64,000 nucleotides of DNA from Ruminococcus sp. FC2018 (GTDB lineage Bacteria > Bacillota > Clostridia > Oscillospirales > Ruminococcaceae). The first letter of the stretch is position 1, and each line of letters opens with the position of its first letter. The stretch spans positions 62,001 to 126,000 of the forward strand of contig NZ_JHXH01000002.1 of assembly GCF_000621805.1 (NCBI RefSeq), in the 5' to 3' direction. The notes beneath the pieces are model-generated. The model was not told where the DNA came from and searched no databases. It was given only the letters and a program-made list of their open reading frames with translations. Below are positions 17,250 to 53,001 of this stretch, one piece after another. The position numbers and the translations under genes are program-made.

Positions 17250-17497
17250 AATAAAAAATCAGCATATGTGCGGTGAACGGGAGAGTAACCGAAGATGCAG
17301 CGGCATAGCGAGGACCGTATGGTGAAAGGGTCTGCGCACGTCAAGGCGAAGGACACCCGGGAGCATTCCGATCGATAAAAAGACCGGGCGTATGATCTGC
17401 GTTAAGGATCTCAGAGTGACAAAGATGCTGCGTGCAGCTTTGTAATTAGGGTGGTATCACGATCACGGTCGTCCCTTTGGGGTGACCGTGTTTTTTG
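17250..17497 (+). promoter_or_regulatory. T-box riboswitch, histidine specifier
   Basis: The leader has a stem-I AGCGAGG bulge, a GGTGAAAG loop, a specifier region GAAGGACACCCGGGAG (CAC at 17354-17356, a His codon), a stem III (CAAAG...CTTTG), the T-box AGGGTGGTATCAC (17448-17460) and a terminator hairpin (17464-17490) with a T run. It precedes hisS, in agreement with the specifier. A TTGACA at 17245 overlaps the mgsA stop but has no good -10, so the promoter is unclear. It fills the 327-base gap. Confidence 0.92.
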
Positions 17498-17575
17498 TTT
17501 GCGGTTGACTAAAATGAGAAAATAGGTTATTATTAGTTATTGCAGATAAGCGATCGAAAGGAAAGGTTGAATAAA

Positions 17576-18907
17576 ATGGCTTTGTTAGCAAAAAAACCAA
17601 AGGGAACGGCTGATGTGGTGCCGGGAAAGTCTTATATGTGGCACACGGTGGAAAAGATAGTCTCCGAGACCGCACAGCAGTACGGATTTAAAGAGATACG
17701 CATACCTACCTTCGAGGATACTGGACTGTTTGTCCGTTCCGTGGGGGAGACCACCGATGTGGTGCAGAAGGAAATGTATACCGTTTCCGCAGCAGGTGAC
17801 TCAAAGTTCACCCTGCGCCCCGAGGGGACGGCAGGCACAATGCGTGCAATGCTGGAAAACGGCATTATGAACGAGGGATTTCCCCAGAAGGTGTATTATA
17901 TCCTCTCCTGCTTCCGACATGAAAATGTCCAGGCAGGCAGACTCAGAGAGTTCCACCAGTTCGGCTGCGAAATGGTGGGAAGCGCAAGCCCCAGAGCTGA
18001 TTCAGAGGTCATTGCCCTTGCAAAAAGCGTGCTGGACAGAGTGGGCTTGCAGAATATCGAGCTGAATATAAATTCTATCGGCTGCCCCCAGTGCAGGGAA
18101 AAGTACAGACAGGCTCTTCGTGAGTACTTTGAACCGTATAAGGACAAGCTCTGCCATACCTGCCGGGACAGGCTGGACAAGAACCCAATGAGGATACTGG
18201 ACTGCAAATCCCCCGAGGATCAGGCTATTGCCAAGGACGCTCCGGTGATACTTGACTATCTGTGCGACGATTGCAGACAGCACTTTGAAAAGCTCAAGCA
18301 GTACCTTGGAGAGATGAAGATAGAGTTTAGCGTAAACCCACGGATAGTAAGAGGTCTTGACTATTATACCAGAACAGTGTTTGAGTTTATCACCACCGAG
18401 ATAGGCGCACAGGGCACAGTCTGCGGCGGCGGAAGATACGACGGCCTTATCGGTGAGCTTGGCGGCGCACAAACACCTGCCCTGGGCTTTGGAATGGGAC
18501 TGGAAAGACTGCTGCTTGTTATGCAGAAGCAGGGCTGCGACTTTATCGAGGAAAAGACCTGCGACCTGTATTTTGCCACAATGGGCGAAAATGCCGTAGG
18601 CAAAGCTCTGGAGCTGACAACACAGCTGCGTGACGAGGGGTATTTCGTGGAGTATGACCTGGTGGAAAGAGGCTTGAAGCCACAGATGAAATACGCCGAT
18701 AAGATAGGCGCAAAGTTCGTGGTGGTGCTGGGTGACAACGAGATAGATTCCGGCAATGCAAAGCTTAAAAATATGGCAAGCGGCGAGCAGACGGATATAA
18801 AGCTTGACGCAAGCTTTGTGGACACGTTTTCACAGGCTGTTATCGGAGAGATGTTCAGCGGACTTGAAGCTGAAGTGGGAAATCTGTTTGGAAAGGACGA
18901 AAACTAA
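17576..18907 (+). CDS. hisS: Histidyl-tRNA synthetase
   Basis: 443 aa. Class II motifs: SCFRHENVQAGRLREFHQ (motif 2), the histidine-specific RGLDYYTRTVFEF, and GFGMGLERLLL (motif 3), followed by an anticodon-binding domain (KQLRDEGYFVEYDL...). The ATG at 17576 follows GAAAGG; an in-frame TTG at 17540 lacks a site. The gene is under T-box control and is the first of a run hisS-unknown-unknown-aspS with start/stop overlaps. Confidence 0.97.
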   Translation: MALLAKKPKGTADVVPGKSYMWHTVEKIVSETAQQYGFKEIRIPTFEDTGLFVRSVGETTDVVQKEMYTVSAAGDSKFTLRPEGTAGTMRAMLENGIMNEGFPQKVYYILSCFRHENVQAGRLREFHQFGCEMVGSASPRADSEVIALAKSVLDRVGLQNIELNINSIGCPQCREKYRQALREYFEPYKDKLCHTCRDRLDKNPMRILDCKSPEDQAIAKDAPVILDYLCDDCRQHFEKLKQYLGEMKIEFSVNPRIVRGLDYYTRTVFEFITTEIGAQGTVCGGGRYDGLIGELGGAQTPALGFGMGLERLLLVMQKQGCDFIEEKTCDLYFATMGENAVGKALELTTQLRDEGYFVEYDLVERGLKPQMKYADKIGAKFVVVLGDNEIDSGNAKLKNMASGEQTDIKLDASFVDTFSQAVIGEMFSGLEAEVGNLFGKDEN

Positions 18908-19224
18908 TGAGTAAAAGATGCCAGCAGTGTGATATGATACCTATCGCACAGATACACAACCCCCAGGAGTATATGATATGCATAGATTCCTTCGGAAGAA
19001 TGGTGGAAAAGGGAGAAATGGAGCTTGTTTACGCTACCTGCCCCCTTGACACGGTGATAGACGAGCAGGGAAGATTCTATTCCAGAAAGCTGTTCCACCA
19101 GTTCAGATGTACAAGCTGCGGAACTGTCTACGGAATGTATGTGGATGCCACCCAGGGGGGCGAGATAAAGATAAACGACAAGGTCTTTGACCCGGACGAG
19201 TACGAAGCAAAGGACGAGGACTAA
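18907..19224 (+). CDS. Small zinc-ribbon-like protein, unknown
   Basis: 105 aa. CQQCDM at the N-terminus, a single Cys at about 49 and CTSCGTVYGMY near 75 suggest a zinc-binding fold, followed by an acidic tail (DPDEYEAKDED). Its ATG overlaps the hisS stop (TAATG), so it is translationally coupled to hisS. I do not recognise the family. Confidence 0.75.
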   Translation: MSKRCQQCDMIPIAQIHNPQEYMICIDSFGRMVEKGEMELVYATCPLDTVIDEQGRFYSRKLFHQFRCTSCGTVYGMYVDATQGGEIKINDKVFDPDEYEAKDED

Positions 19225-19745
19225 TGCTTATCATCATTCCACGGAAGTACCGGTTTGAGACGACCCTTGTCCCAAAGCGTGTGGCAAGAAAGCTTGACGG
19301 GGAGCTCACCGAGTTCAGACCCAGCCTCAACGTCCTTGCCACGGGAAAGTTCATGAAGTCACACAAGTTTGAAAACGTGTACTACGGCAGGCGTGAGGGG
19401 CAGCAGTTCAGGGTGTTTTACCACAGGTTCAAAAAGCGTGACGGAGGGGAGACGGGATTTTTCGGGAAGTATGAAAAGTCCGAACACGGCACGCTTATAA
19501 CAGGAACATTCCGCAAGGGCGTATCCACCTATATTTTCGGTATCATCTGGGCGGTGCTGACCCTGCTCAGCGGGCTTGTCTGCCTGTCGCTGAAACAGGA
19601 GTACGGAGCTGTCGCCTGCGCTGTGCTGTTTGTGGCAGGAATGTTCTTTCTTTTCTGGGACAACAAGATAAAGTATCTTTACAGCTATCTTGACGGATTC
19701 CCAAGATACGAGGAGAAGAACGACGCACCAAGTGTGAGTGAGTAA
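19224..19745 (+). CDS. Two-helix membrane protein, unknown
   Basis: 173 aa. A basic N-terminal half (about 1-105) with RYRFETTLVPKRVARKLDGELTEFRPS is followed by two adjacent membrane helices at about 108-127 and 132-150 and a short tail. Its ATG overlaps the preceding stop (TAATG). It is the third gene of the hisS run. The family is not recognised. Confidence 0.72.
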   Translation: MLIIIPRKYRFETTLVPKRVARKLDGELTEFRPSLNVLATGKFMKSHKFENVYYGRREGQQFRVFYHRFKKRDGGETGFFGKYEKSEHGTLITGTFRKGVSTYIFGIIWAVLTLLSGLVCLSLKQEYGAVACAVLFVAGMFFLFWDNKIKYLYSYLDGFPRYEEKNDAPSVSE

Positions 19746-19749
19746 TAAT

Positions 19750-19976
19750 AACAGGTTTTTCGATCAAGCCTTTTCTCGTAAAAAAGGCTTGCGGGTCGAG
19801 GGCAGAGCCCTCGTCGCTCTCCGCAGAGAGCGAAATCCCCTTACGTCAGGCGCACGGAAAAGGGTGAATTTCAAAACAGTCCGGTGGACTGTTTTGAGAG
19901 AGGGAAAGCCCTGCAAGAGAGGGCTTTCCCTAATGAGAGTATTGTACTATTTATCCTCAAGCCTACAGGCTTGACG
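19750..19976 (+). repeat. Mosaic hairpin element, copy A
   Basis: Six perfect or near-perfect hairpins in a row: AAGCCTTTT (19766-19774/19782-19790), GAGGGC (19798-19803/19807-19812), CGCTCTC (19815-19821/19826-19832), TCAAAACAGTCC (19871-19882/19886-19897), AGGGAAAGCCCT (19901-19912/19920-19931) and TCAAGCC (19957-19963/19968-19974). Copies B and C have the same order with different stem sequences that still pair. It fills the gap between the membrane-protein gene and aspS. There is no coding potential of note. Confidence 0.9.
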
Positions 19977-20014: not shown

Positions 20015-21790
20015 ATGCTTGACACAATGAAAGGTCTGCGCAGGACACATTACTGCGCCAAGGTGCCACAGGAGGAGGGCAGCGAGGTCGTGGTATGCGG
20101 CTTTGCAGACAGGGTGAGAGACATCGGAAACCTGCTGTTTATAAATCTGCGTGACCGCACAGGACTTTTGCAGCTTGCTTTCAACGACAACACCGACAAG
20201 GAGATATTTGAAAAGGCAAGAACCGTCAGAGCCGAGGACGTGCTGCTGGCAAGGGGCGTTATAAGACCCAGAGAGAGCATAAATCCAAAGCTCCCCACAG
20301 GTCTTATCGAGGTGGACGTAAAGGAGCTGCGTATACTTGCAGCTGCGGAAACAACGCCGTTTGAGGTCACAAATTCCGACAAGGTAAGGGACGAGCTGAA
20401 GCTGAAATACAGATACCTTGACCTTAGAAATCCAAGGCTCCAGAACAACATCATCACCCGTCACAGAATAGCTAAGGTGGTAAGGGATTATTTCTACGAG
20501 AACGATTTTCTTGAGATAGAGACCCCCATGATGATGCGTTCCACCCCGGAGGGAGCAAGAGATTACCTGGTGCCTTCAAGGGTCCATCCGGGCAAGTTCT
20601 ATGCCCTGCCCCAGTCTCCCCAGATATATAAGCAGCTGCTTATGATAGCCGGATACGACAGGTATATCCAGCTTGCAAGGTGTTTCCGTGACGAGGACCT
20701 TCGTGCGGACAGACAGCCGGAGTTTACCCAGATAGACCTTGAAATGTCCTTTGTTGACGTTGAGGATATCCTGGTAATGGCTGAGGGCATGGTGCAAAGA
20801 CTGTTCAAGGAGATACTGGATATAGATATCCCCCTGCCGCTGCCAAGAATGACCTTTGCCGACGCTATGAACAAGTACGGCTCGGATAAGCCGGATACAC
20901 GCTTTGATATGCAGATACAGGACATTACCGATACCGTTAAGGATATAGATTTTGTTGTGTTCAAAAGTGCTGTGGAAAACGGCGGCTCGGTAAGAGCTAT
21001 CGTTGCAAAGGGCGGCGCAGAAACATACACAAGAAAAGAAATAGATAAGCTGGTGGAGCACGCAAAGGGCATCGGCGCAAAGGGTCTTGCGTACATACGC
21101 TGGGCTGACGAGCCGAACTGCTCCTTCAAGAAGTTCCTGGGGGAGGGCGACCTTGACAGGATACTCTCTGCCGTGGGCGCAGAAAAGGGCGACCTGGTGC
21201 TTATCTGTGCAGACAGAAACAAGGTCGTGCTCAATACCCTTGGCGCAATAAGACTTATCTGCGGCAAACGCCTCGGGCTTGTAAAGGAAGGCTACAACTT
21301 CCTGTGGATAACCGAAATGCCGTTCTTTGAGCAGGACGATGAAACAGGGGAGTGGGTCGCTGCTCACCACCCGTTCACAATGCCTCTTGAGGAGTGTATC
21401 GAGTTCCTTGACAGCGACCCCGCAAAGGTAAGAGCAAAGGCATTCGACCTGGTGCTCAACGGCACCGAGCTTTCGTCGGGTTCAATGAGAATTACCGACC
21501 CGGCATTGCAGAAGAAAATGTTTGAATCCCTGGGCATGACCGATGAGGAAATAGATGCCAAGTTCGGATTCCTGGTGGATGCTTACCGCTACGCTTCACC
21601 TCCCCACGGCGGAATGGGTATCGGCCTTGACAGACTTGCCATGATAATCTGCGGCGCAGACTCTCTGCGTGACGTGGTTGCCTTCCCTAAGGTACAAAAC
21701 GCAAGCGAGCTTATGAGTGCCTGCCCTGCCGAGGTGGACGAAAAACAGCTTGAGGAGCTTTACATTAAAACCGTCGCACCCGAAGAATAG
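20015..21790 (+). CDS. aspS: Aspartyl-tRNA synthetase
   Basis: 591 aa, bacterial-type length. An N-terminal OB anticodon-binding domain (about 15-110), class II core with RDEDLRADRQPEFTQIDLE (motif 2), a GAD insertion (about 290-420) and GMGIGLDRLAMIICG (motif 3) are all visible. The ATG at 20015 follows AAAAAGGAAG. No T-box was found in its leader; instead the hairpin element lies directly upstream, so it may be expressed by read-through from hisS. Confidence 0.97.
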   Translation: MLDTMKGLRRTHYCAKVPQEEGSEVVVCGFADRVRDIGNLLFINLRDRTGLLQLAFNDNTDKEIFEKARTVRAEDVLLARGVIRPRESINPKLPTGLIEVDVKELRILAAAETTPFEVTNSDKVRDELKLKYRYLDLRNPRLQNNIITRHRIAKVVRDYFYENDFLEIETPMMMRSTPEGARDYLVPSRVHPGKFYALPQSPQIYKQLLMIAGYDRYIQLARCFRDEDLRADRQPEFTQIDLEMSFVDVEDILVMAEGMVQRLFKEILDIDIPLPLPRMTFADAMNKYGSDKPDTRFDMQIQDITDTVKDIDFVVFKSAVENGGSVRAIVAKGGAETYTRKEIDKLVEHAKGIGAKGLAYIRWADEPNCSFKKFLGEGDLDRILSAVGAEKGDLVLICADRNKVVLNTLGAIRLICGKRLGLVKEGYNFLWITEMPFFEQDDETGEWVAAHHPFTMPLEECIEFLDSDPAKVRAKAFDLVLNGTELSSGSMRITDPALQKKMFESLGMTDEEIDAKFGFLVDAYRYASPPHGGMGIGLDRLAMIICGADSLRDVVAFPKVQNASELMSACPAEVDEKQLEELYIKTVAPEE

Positions 21791-36785: not shown

Positions 36786-36960
36786 CAGTACCCTTGCGTG
36801 GCAGCCGGGGGAAACCCTTTTGGAGAGAGGGTCGAAGAACGGCATAGCCGTTCTTCAGAGTAACCGTGGTAACGGTTACTCTATCCCGTCCAGACCCCCT
36901 TCCTAAACCTTTTATAGATTTTCGGCAATCGGGAGCCACACCTCCCGATCACCGAAAATG
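36786..36960 (-). repeat. Mosaic hairpin element, variant copy D
   Basis: Hairpins in this 665-base gap: GAAGAACGGC (36834-36843/36847-36856), AGAGTAACCGT (36857-36867/36872-36882), and a nested pair, ATTTTCGG (36918-36925/36952-36959) around ATCGGGAG (36928-36935/36942-36949). Read on the minus strand, the AGTAACCG hairpin with loop TACC and the following hairpin have the same order as the start of copy C, and the second differs by a paired change (GAACGGC versus GAATGGC). The rest of the gap holds only the two promoters noted. Confidence 0.8.
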
Positions 36961-39067: not shown

Positions 39068-40159
39068 ATGGATTATAACAGAAAGCTTATTCTGGAGGAC
39101 GGACAGGAGTATTACGGCTACGGATTCGGTGCAGACTGCGACAAGGTGTGCGAGATAGTTTTCAACACCTCAATGGTGGGTTATCAGGAGATAATCTCCG
39201 ACCCGTCGTATACATATCAGGCTGTGGTCATGACATATCCCCTTATTGGCAACTACGGCATGGCTGATGACGATTACGAAACAAAGATACCGACTATCGG
39301 TGCGCTGGTGGTAAGGGAGTATAACGACGAGCCGTCGAATTTCCGGTGCAGTAAGACTCTTTCACAGGTGATGAAGGAGTACAACGTTCCGGGTATCTAT
39401 GGCGTCGACACCAGAAAGATAAACCGCTCCATAAGAGATCTGGGAAGCCGAAAAGCCCTTATCACAGGGGCAGACACCCGGTTGGAGTGGGGCATGAAGA
39501 TCCTGGAGCAGACCACTATCCCCACAGATGCAGTCAGAAAGGTGAGCTGTAAGGAGCCCTGGCTGTCAAGAACAGAGCATGAACGGTACACCGTTGTGGC
39601 AATCGACTGCGGAATGAAAATGAATATCGTGCGCTCGCTGAACAAGCGGGGCTGCAAGGTCATAATCGTGCCCTGGGATACCACAGCCAAGGAGATAGAA
39701 AGCTATAAGCCCGACGGCGTGTTTATTTCCAACGGACCGGGAGACCCCACCGATGTACCGCCGGTGATCGAAACTATAAAACAGCTCCGTGGAAAGCACG
39801 TTATCTTCGGCATCTGCCTCGGACACCAGATCATTTCCCTGGCGTACGGAGCAAAAACCTATAAGCTTAAATTCGGACACAGAGGGGGAAACCACCCTGT
39901 CAGGAACCTTAAAACAGGCAAGATAGAAATAACCTCGCAAAACCACTCCTATGCGGTGGATATGGAAAGTCTGAAAGATACAGACCTTACAGCGACACAT
40001 ATAAATCTGCTTGACAACACCATCGAGGGCGTTGAGTGCAAGGCGGACAAGGTGTTCAGCGTCCAGTACCACCCCGAAAGCGCACCCGGTCCACAGGACA
40101 GTGCATATCTGTTTGACAGATTTGTTGAGCTTATGAAGGAGGTCAGGGGAAATGCCTAA
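39068..40159 (+). CDS. carA: Carbamoyl-phosphate synthase small (glutaminase) subunit
   Basis: 363 aa. The N-terminal domain ([18 protein letters not shown]) is followed by a class I amidotransferase with FGICLGHQ (nucleophile Cys) and YHPESAPGP (catalytic His and Glu). It releases ammonia from glutamine and passes it to CarB for arginine and pyrimidine synthesis. The ATG follows AAGGAG; its end overlaps carB by eight bases. Confidence 0.97.
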
Positions 40160-43100
40160 GAGAACGGATATAAAAAAGATACTGGTCATAGGCTCCGGTC
40201 CTATCGTAATCGGTCAGGCTGCGGAGTTCGACTATGCAGGCACCCAGGCTTGCCTTGCCCTTAAAGAGGAGGGCTACGAGGTAATACTGTGCAACTCCAA
40301 CCCAGCCACCATAATGACCGACACCGCCATTGCGGACAAGGTGTATATGGAGCCGCTGACGCTGGAATACTGCGCAAAGATAATAAGATACGAGCGTCCT
40401 GATGCAATACTGCCCAATATCGGCGGACAGACGGGGCTCAATATCGCCATGCGCCTTGAAAAGAAAGGTGTTTTGAAGGAGTGCGGCGTGGAGCTTCTGG
40501 GTACAAAGAGCGACTGTATAGAAAAAGCAGAGGACAGAGAGCTGTTCAAGGAGCTGTGTACACAGCTTGGCGAGCCTGTGCTTCCCTCGGATATCGCAAA
40601 CACCATGGAGCAGGGACTTGAGGTGGCAGAAAAAATAGGCTACCCCGTGGTGCTTCGCCCTGCATTTACCCTCGGAGGAACAGGAGGCGGATTTGCCGAC
40701 AACGAGCAGGAGTTCCGCACGGTAATGAAAAACGCCCTTGCCCTTTCCCCTGTCCACCAGGTGCTTATCGAAAAGAGCATAAAGGGCTATAAAGAGATAG
40801 AGTACGAGGTGATGCGTGACTCAAACGACACCGCCCTTACTATCTGTAACATGGAAAATCTTGACCCTGTGGGAATACATACAGGTGACTCTATCGTTGT
40901 GTGCCCGTCCCAGACTCTGACCAATAAAGAGTACCATATGCTGCGTGACAGTGCGCTGAAGCTTATCCGGGCACTTCAGGTCAACGGCGGCTGCAACGTC
41001 CAGTTTGCCCTTGACCCGGACTCATTCCAGTATTACCTTATCGAGGTAAACCCGAGAGTTTCCCGCTCTTCCGCACTTGCCTCAAAGGCAAGCGGATATC
41101 CTATCGCAAGAGTTTCCGCAAAGATAGGCGTGGGAATGACCCTTGACGAGATACAGATAGCAAACACCCCCGCATCCTTCGAGCCTGCCCTTGACTATGT
41201 GGTAACAAAGATGCCAAGGTTCCCCTTTGATAAATTTGCCGATGCAAATAACTCCCTGAGCACCCAGATGAAAGCCACAGGCGAGGTAATGAGCGTGGGC
41301 AGGACTATTGAGGAGAGCCTGCTGAAAGCCATAAGGTCACTGGAGATAGGACTTTTCCACCTGGAGCATAAACGCTTTGAGTATATGAAAAAGGACGGAT
41401 TGCTTGAGTATATAAAGATAGGCACCGACGACCGTATCTACGCTATCGCACAGCTTTTAAGGCTTGGGGTGGGCGAGGAAGAGATCGCACAGGCTACAAA
41501 AATAGATCCTTTCTTTATCCGCAAGCTGAAAAATATAACAGACGAGGAAGAAAAGCTGAGGGCACGCAAGGGCGACCGTGACGAGCTTTACACAGCAAAG
41601 AGAATGGGCTTTTCCGACAGGGAGATCGCAGTGCTTTGGGATATGACCGAAACACAGGTCTTTGAGCTTCGCAGCAAGCTGGGTATCACCCCTGTGTATA
41701 AGATGATAGATACCTGTGCGTCGGAGTTTGAGAGCTATATTCCGTACTTCTATTCCACATACGAGCAGGAAAACGAGTCTATCGTTTCCGACAAGAAAAA
41801 GATAATCGTCCTTGGCTCCGGTCCTATACGTATCGGACAGGGCGTGGAGTTTGACTATTCCACCGTCCATGCCGTAAAGACTATCAAGTCCGCAGGCTAT
41901 GAGGCTATAATAATAAACAATAACCCCGAAACGGTATCCACCGACTATACCTGCTCGGACAAGCTGTATTTCGAGCCTCTGTGCGTCGAGGACGTTATGA
42001 ACGTTATCCGGCTGGAAAAGCCGGAGGGTGTTATTGCCACTCTGGGCGGTCAGACGGCTATCAACCTTGCCCAGCCTCTGGCGGATATGGGAGTAAGGAT
42101 AATCGGCACCGACTGCGCCGCCATCGACAGGGCGGAAAACAGGGATAGCTTTGAAAAGCTGCTTATCGACCTTAATATACCCCAGCCAAAGGGACAGGCA
42201 GTAACAAATATCGAAGCAGGCATTAAGGCAGCCGAAGAGATAGGCTACCCTGTGCTTGTGCGCCCGAGCTTCGTGCTTGGCGGCAGAGCCATGCAGATAG
42301 TTGCCAAGGAAGAGGCACTGCGCCACTACCTTAAAACCGCCGTTGAGATAGACGAGGACAAACCTGTGCTGGTGGATAAGTATATCCGAGGCAAGGAAGT
42401 GGAGGTGGACGCTATCTGCGACGGCGAGCAGGTGTTTGTGCCGGGAATAATGGAGCTTGTCGAAAGAACAGGCGTACACTCCGGCGACTCTATCAGCGTG
42501 TATCCGTCGTTCAGCATCTCAAAGAAGGTCAAGGATACCATACTTGAGTACACAAGAAAGCTGGGCCTTGGCATAGGTATAATCGGTCTGTTCAATATCC
42601 AGTTCATCGTTGATTCACAGGAAAATGTCTACATCATCGAGGTAAACCCCCGCTCGTCAAGAACGGTGCCGTTTTTGTCAAAGGCAACCGGCTATTCGCT
42701 GGCTGACATCGCAACCCTTGTCAACCTGGGCAAGAGCCTGAAGGAGCAGGGCATAACCGAGATATACCCCAAGGAAAAGGAACGCTACTATGTTAAGGTG
42801 CCTGCGTTCTCGTTCTCAAAGCTCAGCGGTATGGACGCATATCTATCCCCTGAGATGAAGTCCACAGGTGAGGCGATAGGCTACGACAAAAAGCTCCACA
42901 GAGCAATGTACAAGGCGCTTATCGCATCGGGCGTGCATATGCAGAACTACGGAACGGTGGTCGTTACCCTTGCCGACGAGGACAAGCAGGAGGCTTTGCC
43001 GCTGGTCAAGAGATTTTATAACATGGGCTTTAACATCGAGGCGACTATCGGAACGGCTAATTTCCTCAAAGAGCATGGCATAAAGACCCGTGTCCGCCGC

Positions 43101-43334
43101 AAGATAAGCGAGGGCAGCAAGGATATTCTGGATTCTATCCGCTCGGGATATGTAAGCTATGTGCTCAACACAAGGGCGATCCTTTCGGGCGTGCACTACG
43201 AGGACGGTGTGCAGATACGCCGCTGCGCTATCCAGAACAACGTCACGATGCTCACCTCGCTGGATACGGTGAGAGTGCTGCTTGATGTGCTTGAAGAAAT
43301 GACAATGGGTATTTCGACAATAGATGCCGAATAA
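40152..43334 (+). CDS. carB: Carbamoyl-phosphate synthase large subunit
   Basis: 1060 aa, full length, with the expected internal duplication. Each half opens with a GSGPI-I/RIGQ motif (residues near 14 and 556) and has an ATP-grasp domain ending in EVNPR(V/S)SRSSA / [15 protein letters not shown]. The allosteric MGS-like domain forms the last 130 residues ([23 protein letters not shown]). It makes carbamoyl phosphate from bicarbonate, ammonia and two ATP. Confidence 0.98.
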
Positions 43335-43374: not shown

Positions 43375-43430
43375 GTTATTGCGACAAATTAGAGTTTGTA
43401 CTATTATCAAATCAGTAGAGGTATGCCCGA

Positions 43431-43713
43431 AGGGGTTTTAGGGGGCGATCGGAAAGCCCCCTAAACAAGAGCCATTCAATCCGCCTTTTTGCAGGCGGAT
43501 TGCGGAAAAAAGTGAGTGTATTCTCCGTAGGGGCACGCCCTCTCTTGCAGGGCGTCCCCTCTTTCAAACAGTCCACAGGACTGTTTGAAATTCACCCCTT
43601 GCCGAGCGCGCGAAGCGTCAGGGTATTCCGCCGTCTGCGGACGGCGGCAAGGGCGCCGCCCTTGACCCGCCAGCCTTTTTTACGAGAAAAGGCTGGACCG
43701 AAAAACCTGTCTT
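43431..43713 (-). repeat. Mosaic hairpin element, copy B (inverted)
   Basis: The same module order as copy A when read on the minus strand. Stems, by plus coordinates: CAGCCTTTT (43671-43679/43687-43695), AAGGGC (43649-43654/43658-43663), CCGCCGTC (43628-43635/43640-43647), TTTCAAACAGTCC (43562-43574/43578-43590), GGGGCACGCCCT (43530-43541/43549-43559, one mismatch), CAATCCGCCT (43477-43486/43493-43502), and an extra GGGGGC-type hairpin near 43441-43463. It fills most of the 425-base gap between carB and the next gene. Confidence 0.9.
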
Positions 43714-43759
43714 GTCTTTGGCAAGCCCTTATAGGTCGTTCAGACCCACAAATACTGAT

Positions 43760-44119
43760 TTATGCCTTTACTATTCTGAAGAAATGGAACACCTCAAATC
43801 CGTCTGCTGTCGGGGCAGCTTCCTCCCAGCCGTCGTCGCCCTCGGTGAAGAGCTTTCCGTCCTCCTCTTTCCATTTTCCGACGTGACCGACAACGAAATT
43901 GTCATCAAACGGCTCGCCCTCGTCGCCGACTATAGCCTTTGGCATAAGCTGCTTGAATGTTCCGTCCTGCTCAAACAGGTAGGCAGCCTGTGCCATGACC
44001 TTCTGCATCGGGTGGATACTGTCGTCGGCAGCGACCTGTTCTGCGGTTTTCCAAGTCTGCTTGAAGTCCTTATCCATTACGTTGACCTGTGCGATCTTCC
44101 ACATACCAAGAATGTCCAT
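43760..44119 (-). CDS. Lipocalin-like or beta-barrel small protein, unknown
   Basis: 119 aa. It starts with ILGMWKIAQVNVMDKDF, a short Trp-containing strand pattern like that of small lipocalin-type proteins, and continues with alternating beta-prone segments (VGHVGKWKEEDGKLFTEGDDGWEEA). No signal peptide or membrane helix is present. It follows the phosphoribosyltransferase gene with a 23-base gap and an AAGGAG site, so it is in its operon. The function is not known. Confidence 0.68.
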   Translation of the reverse strand: MDILGMWKIAQVNVMDKDFKQTWKTAEQVAADDSIHPMQKVMAQAAYLFEQDGTFKQLMPKAIVGDEGEPFDDNFVVGHVGKWKEEDGKLFTEGDDGWEEAAPTADGFEVFHFFRIVKA

Positions 44120-49700: not shown

Positions 49701-50317
49701 AGATGGGCAACGAAACGATCCTTGCCATCGCAAAAACAGTCGACGCCAAGGACCTTCGTACAAGTAAGCATTCCCAGAGGGTGTCGGAGTATTCCGCAAT
49801 GATAGCCCATGAGTACGGCTTCACAGACGACGAAGTCGAAAATCTGCGAAAGGCAGCACTGCTGCACGATATCGGTAAGATAGGTATACCCGATTCGGTG
49901 CTCAATAAGCCTGCAAGGCTCACCGATGAGGAGTATGCCGTAATGAAGACCCACGTTACAAGAGGAGCGGAAATACTCAAAGACTTTACCCTTATCGACC
50001 ACGTCGTGGAAGGTGCAAGATTCCACCACGAGCGATATGACGGAAGAGGCTATCCCGACGGTCTGAAGGGTGAGGAGATACCTCTGTACGGAAGGATAAT
50101 CGCCATTGCCGATGCCTTTGATGCCATGACCGCAAACAGAGTCTACCGTAAGCGACAGGATTTTGATTATGTCATGGGCGAGCTGCATAAGGGCAGGGGA
50201 ACACAGTTTGACCCGCAGCTGCTTGACATTTTCCTCAAGCTTATCGACGACAAGAAGATAGATATCGACGCTCTCTATAAGGGCGAACACCAGAAGGATG
50301 AGGAGGAGCAGCAATGA
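46733..50317 (+). CDS. Multi-domain membrane sensor: ECF-S-like domain, beta-propeller, Y_Y_Y and HD-GYP phosphodiesterase
   Basis: 1194 aa from GTG 46733 (GGGGGAC upstream). The first 205 residues form about five membrane helices with LPGWLDTFGTFFSAYTLGPVPGAIVGLSGN, resembling substrate-binding S components of ECF vitamin transporters. A hydrophobic segment at about 220-240 leads to an external domain (about 255-830) of repeated two-component-regulator propeller blades (DGVMWIGTYAGLYRYNG, GRLWVGTNDNGVVI, NVWISTFGKGLAVV). A Y_Y_Y-type domain follows (about 870-950), then a last membrane helix (near 960-980) and a C-terminal HD-GYP domain with HDIGK at 1045-1049, HHERYDGRGYP and GYP at about 1105-1107. 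HD-GYP enzymes degrade c-di-GMP; all core metal residues are present. Its stop overlaps the next gene by four bases, linking it to a binding protein. Confidence 0.9.
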   Translation: MEKKGSKRQFIHAVIVALVCIIVNCIGRELATKYQLPGWLDTFGTFFSAYTLGPVPGAIVGLSGNVILGFWTRSVLAYSVVSIFIGLTVGFMARKRYFDTLFHTMTVAGFTSIGAVVISTVINLIIADGNTGNIWGNGVKDMFMESGWNKYISSFVGELYLEFPDKLFAALCMYVMVKLVRRVSQKGSKDAARASAATTAAVAVLLSAVIAPVGIQAQAADAKQTGEGETGRDSYIQTVFNGTNGLACGHANAVAQTNDGVMWIGTYAGLYRYNGTEFKHMIEFEEIKNVNYLYVDGEGRLWVGTNDNGVVIVINEKVTNVIKQENGLPSNSIRSIVQSASGEYYVGTASGVVSIELKMGITVKKEIPDVGYVNSISADTTGYVAAVSSEGGLFIMKDNEVTARFENGALGSELASCNFAADGSLYAGTADGKILVIKLGANKATVEKTYTCKDIVRINGVYPDIDGRVWICADNGIGFVDASGSFTKQETGDFDQSIKNMMVDYQGNLWFASLRLGLLRLSGSSFTDLFADCGIQPSVVNTTAIDRDLLYAGADNGLIMLNLKTHKRVLNGLTDHYKGVRIRCICKDKNNNVWISTFGKGLAVVDRQGTITDYTEKFPEIGDWIRTTLELDDGTIAVSASDGIFFMKNGSISSKIAYDDKFGLAQALCFLQTPDGTLYAGTDGNGIAVIKDGKAQKHITREDGLTSEVILRLVHDPQDNRVYIVTSNSICTMSDDGKVSQVKAFPYSNNYDVMIDNSGDLLVTGSAGIYVVNKKALLEGKDPEYTILDSRSGLVGSLTANSWNSADSSRNVYLSSDRGVFVMNLDNYLLRQRSFRIMLTEMRLDDKTGSIDRDTDLAIDRDVHKIEFFPEIINYTHDDPTVSYYLEGFEKDWTNVRRSELISVQYTNLDPGNYTFHLAIRDDGGNIVEESQFRFHKQKAIYDNGWFMIYVIGVAGVFVGWLTWFVTRTRIQRTLELQQTKLSMALQQVQMGNETILAIAKTVDAKDLRTSKHSQRVSEYSAMIAHEYGFTDDEVENLRKAALLHDIGKIGIPDSVLNKPARLTDEEYAVMKTHVTRGAEILKDFTLIDHVVEGARFHHERYDGRGYPDGLKGEEIPLYGRIIAIADAFDAMTANRVYRKRQDFDYVMGELHKGRGTQFDPQLLDIFLKLIDDKKIDIDALYKGEHQKDEEEQQ

Positions 50318-51522
50318 CAAAGGGAATGAAGAATATAATTGCCGCCCTCATTGCCGGGGTGATGTCCATAGCCGTTTTTTACGGGGTGTACCGATTTGAG
50401 CAGTCACACAGCAGGAAGAATAAGGACATCAAAGCCGGGTTTATCTTTGACGGCGATGCCAGCACCCCCTATACCGCCAATTTTATCAAAGCGGTCAACC
50501 AGATAAAGACTACCTACGGCGATAAAGTGGAGGCAGTTGAAAAATACAACGTGCCCTATGAAGATGCCGAGGAAGTGATGACCCAAATGGCTGACGACGG
50601 GTGCGCTATTATCTTCACCAATTCCTACGGGTACGGAGAAACCGCAAAGAAAATGGCGGAGAAATACCCCGAAATACAGTTTTGCGAGGCGACCTGCGAC
50701 AACGCAAATTCCGAGCCGCAGCTTAAAAACTACCATAACTTCATGGGCGAGATATATCAGGCAAGATATGCCAGCGGCGTAGTTGCCGGGGCAAAGCTCA
50801 AGGAAATGATAGAAAAGGGCGTTATCACCAAAGACCAGGCAGTTGTTGGCTTTGTGGCAGCCTACCCGGTGGCGGAGGTGATCTCGGGATATACCGCCTT
50901 TCTTATGGGCGTGCGCTCACAGTGTGAAAACGCCGTGATGAAGGTAAAGTATATAAACACCTGGACAAATTACGCACTTGAAAAGAATGTGGCGCAGCAG
51001 CTTATAGACGAGGGCTGCGTGATAATATCCCACCACTCCAACACCATAGGCTCGGCGATAGCCTGTGAGAATGCCGGCAAGAGCTATCCTGTGTACCACG
51101 TGGGATACAACCAGGACATGATGAACGTTGCCCCCAGGACTGCCCTTACCAGCTGCCGCATAGACTGGGAGCCGTATATGTCAGCCGCCATTGAAGCGGT
51201 GATAAACGACCGTGACATTGAGAGCAATTCAGAGGGCAGAAAGAACGGAAGAGATGTAAGCGGCGGATTCAAAGAGGGGTGGGTAAAGCTTCTTGAAATA
51301 AACTCCGCCCTTGCCTCCGAGGATATCAAAAAGCTTGCGCAGGATACAATAAAGGACTTTGAAAAGGGAAAGATACACGTTTTCAAAGGGGATTATACAG
51401 GAGTTGACCCCAACGATCCCAACGATACATACGACCTGAATAAGGAGTATGTGGAAAATGAAAAGTCCTCTGCCCCCACCTTCCATTACGTCCTGAAGGA
51501 TATAATCACCGTTGTGGAATAA
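50314..51522 (+). CDS. BMP-family (PnrA-like) substrate-binding protein, membrane-anchored
   Basis: 402 aa. An N-terminal membrane helix (about 8-25) without a lipobox Cys is followed by a BMP fold: IKAGFIFDGDASTPYTANFIKAV, DDGCAIIFTNSYGYGETAKKMAEKYPEIQF, ARYASGVVAGAKLKEM, VVGFVAAYPVAEVISGYTAFLMGVRS and IDEGCVIISHHSNTIG. BMP/PnrA proteins bind nucleosides for ABC import, but no ATPase or permease lies next to it. Start and stop of the two genes overlap (ATGA), so it is made together with the sensor and probably presents a ligand to it (inference). Confidence 0.85.
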   Translation: MTKGMKNIIAALIAGVMSIAVFYGVYRFEQSHSRKNKDIKAGFIFDGDASTPYTANFIKAVNQIKTTYGDKVEAVEKYNVPYEDAEEVMTQMADDGCAIIFTNSYGYGETAKKMAEKYPEIQFCEATCDNANSEPQLKNYHNFMGEIYQARYASGVVAGAKLKEMIEKGVITKDQAVVGFVAAYPVAEVISGYTAFLMGVRSQCENAVMKVKYINTWTNYALEKNVAQQLIDEGCVIISHHSNTIGSAIACENAGKSYPVYHVGYNQDMMNVAPRTALTSCRIDWEPYMSAAIEAVINDRDIESNSEGRKNGRDVSGGFKEGWVKLLEINSALASEDIKKLAQDTIKDFEKGKIHVFKGDYTGVDPNDPNDTYDLNKEYVENEKSSAPTFHYVLKDIITVVE

Positions 51523-51668: not shown

Positions 51669-51955
51669 AAACAGGTTTTTTGATCCCAGAGTAACCGTTA
51701 CCACGGTTACTCCCAAGAGAATGGCAAAGCCATTCTCGGAGCCTTCTTTCTCGTAAAAAAAGCTTGCGGGTCGAGGGCAGAGCCATCGTCGCTGTCCGCA
51801 GACAGCGAAATCCCCATACAGCGTGCGCTCCGCAAGGGATGAATTTCAAAACAGTCCGGTGGACTGTTTTGAAAGAGGGGACGCCCTGCAAGAGAGGGCG
51901 TCCCCTTTGAAAAGTCTTAAACTGTTTTTCCTCAAGCCGCTTGCGGCTTGACGGT
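51669..51955 (+). repeat. Mosaic hairpin element, copy C (longest)
   Basis: Eight modules: GAGTAACCGT (51689-51698/51703-51712), GAGAATGGC (51717-51725/51729-51737), a degenerate AGCCTT/AAAGCTT hairpin, GGGC/GCC, CGCTGTC (51790-51796/51801-51807), TTTCAAAACAGTCC (51844-51857/51861-51874), GGGGACGCCCT (51877-51887/51895-51905) and TCAAGCCGC (51932-51940/51943-51951). The first two are shared with copy D and the others with copies A and B. It fills the 447-base gap together with the terminator at 51566. Confidence 0.9.
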
Positions 51956-51969
51956 GGGAGTTTTTATTA

Positions 51970-53001
51970 TCATATGATCTTGTTCACGTAGGGTATAAAC
52001 TTCAAAAGCCGTACAATGATGTATGATGCTATAAGTACCCCTATGGAAATGCCCGTTACGGTAAGTGCGCCGCCGCTTGCGAAAGGATCCACCTTCCATA
52101 CCACAAACACCAGCTTCAGCGCAGCCATGTGAATAAGATAAATGCCGAAGGAGCACTTTTCAAGCTCGGCGGCTATCATGTCGATGATCTTCACAGGCTT
52201 GTTTTCCGTCAGCTTCACAAGTCCGAATACACCTGCCGAAAACAGCACTGTAACAATGAATGAATAGTTGCCCAGCAATGCGTTTACTTTGGGAGCACTG
52301 TTTCCGCCTGCCGACCAGATGCTAAGTCCGGTCACTGCCGCTGCGCCCGCAAGGGTAAGGATCACGCAAAGGGGCACATTGAGCCTGATGATCCCGTTGT
52401 GTATCGCATACCCCAGAAACAGGTATAAGGGGTATACGCTGGCTGTGCAGATGTAAAACGCAAGGTCTTTCCCCGTCAGCCCCTCAATGGTCGGCAGTAC
52501 AGACAGGAAAACTGTGTACACCGCAAGGATGTAAATAATGTCCTTTGACTGTGCCGATCTTGTTATAAGCTTGTAAGCGGGCAAAAGAAGATAAAGCGCT
52601 ATCATAAGGTAAAGATACCACATATGCTTCCAGCCGCCGCCGTAAAGCACCTGCCGCAAGCCCTGGGTAAAGGATTTTGCACCAAAGTCTTTTGTTACAA
52701 GCAACCCGTCAAAGCAGGAAAACAGCACCGAGAAAACCACAAGCGCTATTGCCATCCGCAAAATAAGCCTGCCGAATAGTTTTTTGTAAGTCAGCTCTCT
52801 GTTTTTGTCAAGCAGCAGAGCACCGCTTACCATAACAAAACATGGGACCGCCCACATCATCAGATTTCTGACCGTGAGCATGGCAGCCATATCGCCTTTG
52901 GTCTTTGAAAAGGCCGCAGCCGCATAAAAGGTGTGCAGAAACACCACCGCAGCGCAGGCAATGGCTTTTATCCTGCTGAAATAGATTATCCTCTGCTTCA
53001 A
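51970..53001 (-). CDS. Acyltransferase family 3 membrane protein
   Basis: 343 aa with about ten membrane helices. Near the N-terminus, RIKAIACAAVVFLHT has the catalytic-type His and Arg pattern of acyltransferase-3 proteins (R-x-x-A...V-x-x-H), which add acetyl or succinyl groups to sugars of the cell envelope. The start is TTG at 53001, overlapping the stop of the upstream lipoprotein (TTGA). It is last in a three-gene operon with the lipoprotein and the transglutaminase-like protein. Confidence 0.88.
   Translation of the reverse strand: MKQRIIYFSRIKAIACAAVVFLHTFYAAAAFSKTKGDMAAMLTVRNLMMWAVPCFVMVSGALLLDKNRELTYKKLFGRLILRMAIALVVFSVLFSCFDGLLVTKDFGAKSFTQGLRQVLYGGGWKHMWYLYLMIALYLLLPAYKLITRSAQSKDIIYILAVYTVFLSVLPTIEGLTGKDLAFYICTASVYPLYLFLGYAIHNGIIRLNVPLCVILTLAGAAAVTGLSIWSAGGNSAPKVNALLGNYSFIVTVLFSAGVFGLVKLTENKPVKIIDMIAAELEKCSFGIYLIHMAALKLVFVVWKVDPFASGGALTVTGISIGVLIASYIIVRLLKFIPYVNKII

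Follow-up and report, generated by a model that had tools for sequence, protein, structure and literature searches.

Three chains of short hairpins found in a window of the Ruminococcus sp. FC2018 genome (the window being the whole stretch of DNA analysed, 64,000 nucleotides) are copies of a dispersed repeat. The repeat is best explained, with a probability of about 0.6, as a non-autonomous mobile element that carries no gene and is under selection for its fold, either as single-stranded DNA or as RNA. The fold, the copies, vacant sites and doublets have all been observed; the single-strand step, the doublet as the complete unit and an enzyme from outside are inferred.

The hairpin chain

Each unit consists of hairpins A-B-C-D-E-F in a fixed order, often followed by G, and contains no gene. 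Three copies are present in the window, at 19750-19974 (+), 43440-43711 (-) and 51670-51951 (+). Copies 1 and 3 are 85% identical across 192 nt, and copy 2 matches copy 1 in inverse orientation (84% over 95 nt). With copy 1 as the query, the other two are recovered at E-values of 1.8e-58 and 2.5e-47; the covariance model, in whose building the copies themselves or their kin were used, gives the three copies 161, 140 and 154 bits. On these values the likeness is not due to chance, and the common hairpin order that an initial annotation had reported for the three copies is borne out. Their parts are arranged as follows.

19750..19974, plus strand: copy 1, comprising the left end and hairpins A to G; flanked by ORF 19224-19745 and an aspartyl-tRNA-synthetase-like gene (20015-21790)
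19750..19765, plus strand: left end of copy 1, AACAGGTTTTTCGATC
19766..19790, plus strand: hairpin A of copy 1
19798..19812, plus strand: hairpin B of copy 1
19815..19832, plus strand: hairpin C of copy 1, loop CGCA
19836..19864, plus strand: region D of copy 1, short outer stem CCC/GGG
19869..19899, plus strand: hairpin E of copy 1
19901..19931, plus strand: hairpin F of copy 1, loop TGCAAGAGA
19957..19974, plus strand: hairpin G of copy 1
43384..43762 (ends approximate), minus strand: inserted stretch of copy 2, missing from the vacant orthologous site of genome G021
43440..43711, minus strand: chain of copy 2 and one extra hairpin past G, between a carbamoyl-phosphate-synthase large-chain gene (40152-43334, plus) and ORF 43760-44119 (minus)
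43696..43711, minus strand: left end of copy 2, GACAGGTTTTTCGGTC
43671..43695, minus strand: hairpin A of copy 2
43648..43664, minus strand: hairpin B of copy 2
43628..43647, minus strand: hairpin C of copy 2
43594..43624, minus strand: region D of copy 2
43562..43590, minus strand: hairpin E of copy 2
43529..43560, minus strand: hairpin F of copy 2, with a one-base bulge
43477..43502, minus strand: hairpin G of copy 2
43440..43462, minus strand: extra hairpin of copy 2, AGGGGGC..GCCCCCT; a similar hairpin without a chain stands at the orthologous site in G015
51670..51951, plus strand: chain of copy 3, between a PnrA-like substrate-binding-protein gene (50314-51522, plus) with a terminator-like site and an acyltransferase gene (51970-53001, minus)
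51688..51712, plus strand: extra hairpin 1 of copy 3, AGAGTAACCGTTACCACGGTTACTC, with a 94% inverse match at 36852-36882
51717..51737, plus strand: extra hairpin 2 of copy 3, GAGAATGGCAAAGCCATTCTC, found too in the own-genome copies L008 and L009
51740..51764, plus strand: hairpin A of copy 3, imperfect, AGCCTTC../..AAAGCT
51773..51787, plus strand: hairpin B of copy 3, one broken pair, GAGGGC/GCCATC
51790..51807, plus strand: hairpin C of copy 3
51811..51839, plus strand: region D of copy 3
51844..51874, plus strand: hairpin E of copy 3
51876..51906, plus strand: hairpin F of copy 3
51932..51951, plus strand: hairpin G of copy 3

Stem letters vary from copy to copy and mostly remain paired, as had been annotated; the exceptions are the broken pairs in hairpins A and B of copy 3 and the bulge in hairpin F of copy 2. 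Other details needed correction. Copy 3 has two extra hairpins before A, and the text quoted for it reads GGATGAATTTCAAA, not GGGTGAATTTCAAA, and CTCGTAAAAAAAGCT. The extent given for copy 2 (43431-43713) contains the chain, but the inserted stretch, judged against a vacant orthologous site, is wider (about 43384-43762) and has imperfect inverted ends, AAATTAGAGTTTGT / ACAAATACTGATTT.

Two other structures in the window were noted in passing. The hairpin AGAGTAACCGT..ACGGTTACTC lies at 36852-36882, away from any chain copy found, and again, at 94% over 31 nt, inserted within copy 3 (51688-51718), as if single hairpins moved by themselves. A T-box leader (17264-17479, 95.3 bits) lies upstream of ORF 17540-18907.

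Distribution

The genome of origin contains nine full copies, all intergenic, and neither BLAST nor the covariance model found a further one in it; the remaining listed matches are short, four being hairpin E read backwards. The searched genomes have between none and 57 matches each; the highest number is that of a metagenome-assembled genome, and R. flavefaciens XPD3002 has 36. At an E-value of 0.001, model R1 matched at least 67 of 297 genomes and at least 34 of 126 genera in a sample of the family. In the order sample it matched at least 41 of 295 genomes and at least 31 of 149 genera. In the phylum sample at least 3 of 348 genomes matched, all three in the same order, and none outside it passed the strict filters. 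At most ten candidates were scored per genome, so that these counts, and the absences with them, are lower bounds.

Among the matches listed, contig titles name Ruminococcus, Oscillospiraceae, Clostridiales, Clostridia and one Alistipes, and many of the samples come from gut and rumen. The order is taken to be Oscillospirales. The contig titled Alistipes sp. (L328, JAMPAJ010000001.1) sits in the genome with 57 matches, and the family seems limited to one order of Clostridia; the title may be wrong, or the element may have been transferred.

A phage or plasmid origin was considered and rejected. The search of phages and plasmids gave one unannotated phage record over 32% of the query and no plasmid match, and the exact pattern had no match in viral contigs. 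A known RNA family was rejected as well. For the element no Rfam score exceeded the curated cut-off, either in the window or at 13 loci, and a search of 8 loci at an E-value of 5 gave 7 matches, all far below the cut-offs. The earlier remark that no named element has this layout stands in this respect, and in the open literature searched no title or abstract describes such an element.

Covariation of the stems

Evidence for a selected fold can be provided by comparing the paired positions of many copies. Alignment A1 was made with MAFFT, which is blind to structure, and comprises 56 cores; these represent 15 genomes in the genus. These are 56 of 69 fetched loci; the 13 left out (L009, L057, L059, L060, L062, L067, L077, L086, L091, L101, L107, L108 and L116) are interrupted, truncated, with inserts or near repeats of others. 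In hairpins B to F, 94.9% of stem cells are paired, vs 87.1% in shuffled alignments and at most 57.8% when the structure is slid, the latter comparison being flattered by a structure derived from A1 itself (RNAalifold, with region D added by hand). Covariation is 0.255 vs 0.121 in shuffles (sd 0.004), and 19 pairs are changed on both sides vs 13.8. The number of further pair types is barely above the shuffles, 17 of 500 reaching it. Only three pairs of region D hold well; its two inner pairs are formed in 33 of 51 rows and in 19 of 56.

Copies in three further families of the same order also have hairpins A, B and C. Alignment A4 has 34 rows from four taxonomic families, 19 of the rows being from these three. 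They are 19 of 26 order-level matches; L422 was omitted for its different A hairpin and L439 for its different left end, as were five further or second copies. For hairpins A to C, 96.7% of cells are paired vs 77.9% in shuffles, covariation is 0.529 vs 0.177 (sd 0.012), and 159 cells vs 44 are changed on both sides. Further pair types are not above the shuffles in A4 (119 of 500 reach them). The part from D to F is not kept in all order-level copies, for instance in L434 to L438.

The loops vary little. The CGCA loop of hairpin C is identical in 56 of 56 rows of A1 and 34 of 34 of A4, rows that were picked by similarity, and the loop of hairpin F is TGNRANAGA in most rows of A1.

Covariation above shuffled and slid controls fits a functional single-strand fold, and the collected copies thus support the initial suggestion that structure is selected. 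To our knowledge, covariation this strong is unusual in a mobile repeat found across a bacterial order.

The strand that probably folds

For hairpins C, E and F, the stems without gaps in 173 distinct copies comprise 4228 cells, of which 4130 are Watson-Crick, 42 G-T, 11 A-C and 45 other. The pattern by which these copies were collected demanded the CGCA loop in hairpin C and, in hairpin E, 8 or more Watson-Crick pairs out of 10. By hairpin, G-T and A-C number 30 vs 4 in E and 7 vs 3 in F; hairpin C alone has no asymmetry (5 vs 4). A MAFFT alignment of 128 copies gives 57 vs 22, and A1 with region D gives 80 vs 28. When each combination of position, type and genome is counted once in hairpins C and E, 24 vs 6 remain (a hand count, binomial p about 0.001 by hand, made on rows of genomes with G handles only, whose species, being of one genus, are not fully independent).

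Because G-T exceeds A-C, the plus strand seems to fold, as RNA or as single-stranded DNA, rather than the duplex extruding as a cruciform. On the earlier alternative of "RNA or DNA palindromes" the evidence is divided: the G-T excess favours one folded strand, but G-U pairs are rarer than in known RNAs: they make up 1% of the strict stem cells and 3.4% of A1 with region D, vs 8.2% (28 of 343) in 16 tRNAs of the same loci with pairs as drawn by ARAGORN's own rules. This scarcity speaks against selection on RNA alone; RNA and single-stranded DNA are both kept as readings.

The same counts bear on the main doubt about selection. The chain could be an ordinary MITE whose palindromes are kept by template switching between the arms, a mutational process described for RNA hairpins (PMC8794818), and not by selection. 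Such copying of one arm from the other suits stems that are almost purely Watson-Crick, and it suits the common swaps between C-G and G-C (15 and 14 rows at one pair of A4). It predicts equal numbers of G-T and A-C mismatches, however, where 42 and 11 are observed, and it permits inversions of the loop, whereas CGCA is the same in every row of the two alignments; this second point is weakened by the choice of rows by similarity and by the rarity of loop inversions that PMC8794818 gives for rRNA. The conserved order, loops and linkers across taxonomic families are also left unexplained. The G-T excess and the constant loops speak against arm-copying as the whole story, and as such it is an unlikely explanation.

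Insertion, vacant sites and doublets

The chain element inserts, as can be seen from vacant orthologous sites, although its ends there are approximate, the flanks having diverged. The site of copy 2 is vacant in G021 and nearly vacant in G015, where one hairpin of another repeat remains; G022 and G007 have a different, gene-sized stretch there. At the site of copy 3, G017 lacks the element and has about 160 bp of other sequence instead. Two copies of G190 are missing at orthologous places in G101. Genus g64 offers no clean vacant sites, its sites being nested pile-ups.

In G015 and G028 (L276, L282) the sites orthologous to window 43392-43760 lack the chain and have another hairpin repeat, CACCCGAAGGGG..AAAGCCCCC; a similar hairpin lies within copy 2.

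Larger units are found in G937, which has eight close convergent pairs of chains. The two chains are 149-154 bp apart in seven pairs and 96 bp in one, and the whole doublet measures 534-540 bp in seven and 480 bp in one, or about 536 bp. Each doublet consists of two inverted chains around a fixed spacer, and its ends match as inverted repeats starting near ACACCGGGTTTC. Read by eye, the two chains of a doublet (L450-L457) belong to different types, distinguished by their F stems (GAACGCCC and GGACGCTC), and some doublets have the spacer in the opposite orientation. Twelve single chains of G937 were read; 11 of them share one left end, and L465 and L469, at least, continue into spacer sequence (by eye). 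On these grounds the single chains are read as halves. The doublets suggest that the full mobile unit is the doublet, about 536 bp long in G937, and that single chains, such as the nine in the FC2018 genome, would be one-sided units or remnants.

Inverted pairs also occur in other genera (L171, L174, L175, L178, L208, L212, and L435, L440). None was found among the nine own-genome copies, all of which are single chains, and R. flavefaciens XPD3002 has no close inverted pair among its 36 matches. Since the outer ends vary from genus to genus, one mechanism for all is not established.

The initial annotation had named a known MITE or repeat with terminal repeats and target duplications as the finding that would count against a novel structured element. 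This applies in part. Inverted ends do exist in some copies: they are clear in the G937 doublets, partial in the copy 2 type and in L066, and not seen in the single copies of G190. No consistent direct repeat flanks the eight G937 doublets, and no RNA family with a name was matched. Direct repeats beside the G937 units average 4.6 bases vs 4.0 in swapped pairs, and the two longest of note, 7 and 9 bases, lie at differing distances. One G190 site, with GATTAG/GACTAG, is suggestive of a target duplication.

Gene context

The genes around 108 copies were called with a codon-trained caller. The copies comprise 85 from a set of 112 matches, from which the weakest and the short ones to hairpin E in reverse were dropped, and 23 from the 26 order-level matches; the two chains of one doublet are counted separately. 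Both neighbours lie on the copy's strand in 35 cases and on the opposite strand in 29; 28 copies are flanked by convergent genes and 6 by divergent ones, and for 10 a neighbour was not called. A cruder count of 85 copies gave 23, 26, 21 and 8, in the same order. The small number between divergent genes fits an element whose insertion is tolerated at a distance from promoters, a pattern also described in pneumococcal repeats (PMC3049150). Regulation in cis in one orientation is not supported, the orientations between tandem genes being nearly equal.

It may be asked whether the chain is instead a dispersed structured RNA that is useful to the host, as a small RNA or a 3'-UTR element, and spreads passively. 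Strong covariation, conserved loops and the excess of G-T over A-C would all be expected of it. Among order-level relatives, moreover, 21 copies have an upstream gene that was called, and in 18 of these it shares the strand of the copy, a count in which copies between convergent genes always fall on this side; this is a sign that the chain may have a role at 3' ends there. Against this stand the tandem-gene orientations (35 and 29), the range from none to 57 matches per genome and the low G-U content. The chains also contain no promoter-like or terminator-like sites; near copy 2 there is a single promoter-like site (43379), no more than expected by chance. A host RNA is considered quite improbable.

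Comparison with known elements and the search for an enzyme

The chain may be filed among the small mobile hairpin repeats, and it would work like a REPIN or a BOX element. BOX elements of S. pneumoniae are likewise modular small repeats with stable predicted RNA folds and optional middle modules. They are over-represented between convergent genes, are clustered with and inserted into other repeats, and are thought to be moved in trans by the enzyme of an IS (PMC3049150). Compared with the published layout of BOX elements, the hairpin chain differs in having six or seven ordered hairpins, in the free covariation of its stems throughout an order of bacteria, and in forming inverted doublets around a spacer.

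REPINs are alike in their inverted doublets with a spacer (seen here in G937 and others, but not in the FC2018 genome), in singlets read as remnants, in compensatory hairpin changes and in a proposed single-strand folding (PMC3116915). They differ in size, each half being about 170-200 nt with six hairpins here vs 20-40 bp for a REP (PMC3733652), and in their Y1 companion, with which the chain is not associated. Bacterial MITEs share with the chain a short, gene-less, multicopy and dispersed form, intergenic positions, inverted ends in some copies and predicted stable transcripts (PMC10969869). Unlike them, the chain has no consistent target duplication, and no parent IS with the same ends was found in the searches of the FC2018 genome or, by eye, between two distant chain pairs; its order and loops recur across many genera of one order.

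A Y1 transposase, of the RAYT or another type, was rejected as the mover because Y1_Tnp is not associated with the element: it occurs in 30 of 67 element genomes vs 97 of 230 others (p = 0.78). At an E-value of 1e-3 none was found in carriers with the maximum of 10 scored copies such as G091, G183, G250, G302, G033, G072, G175, G306 and G319, though drafts may miss genes at contig breaks. It is thus very unlikely that the chain is a REPIN-type element moved through single-stranded DNA by a REP-associated or IS200-type Y1 (HUH) transposase, even though the inverted doublets, single-strand hairpins, remnant singlets, compensatory changes and lack of a clear target duplication resemble one and the FC2018 genome has a multicopy Y1 gene; the window copies, which alternate in strand within 32 kb, also indicate no fixed replication-strand bias.

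The Y1 gene of the FC2018 genome (G000) is cut at several contig ends (L117-L123), and the flanks fetched there are free of the element. The search turned up no enzyme partner, and the ORFs between the distant chain pairs within L183 and within L185 include no transposase recognised by eye.

Proposed mechanism and significance

Under the preferred explanation, that of a gene-less mobile element selected to fold, copying or insertion would depend on one strand, whether single-stranded DNA or RNA, adopting the fold of the hairpin chain. The life cycle would then include a folded plus strand, and the need to fold would keep the stems paired. The moving enzyme would be encoded elsewhere, and would apparently not be a Y1 (IS200 or RAYT) transposase.

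A more specific form of this idea is speculative, and we would not expect it to hold: the chain might be a bacterial counterpart of SINEs, order-wide and gene-less, with a folded RNA or single-stranded DNA as its replication intermediate. The ordered hairpins would mark this intermediate for the enzyme that copies it, which either the host or another element would supply. On this view the recognition marks would be the conserved loops, and the covarying stems only a scaffold.

In several draft genomes copies lie at contig ends, and therefore the element may also break assemblies. The family provides a testable case for what keeps the hairpins of mobile DNA paired, whether selection on the fold or mutation by arm-copying, and it points to a putative new enzyme in gut bacteria.
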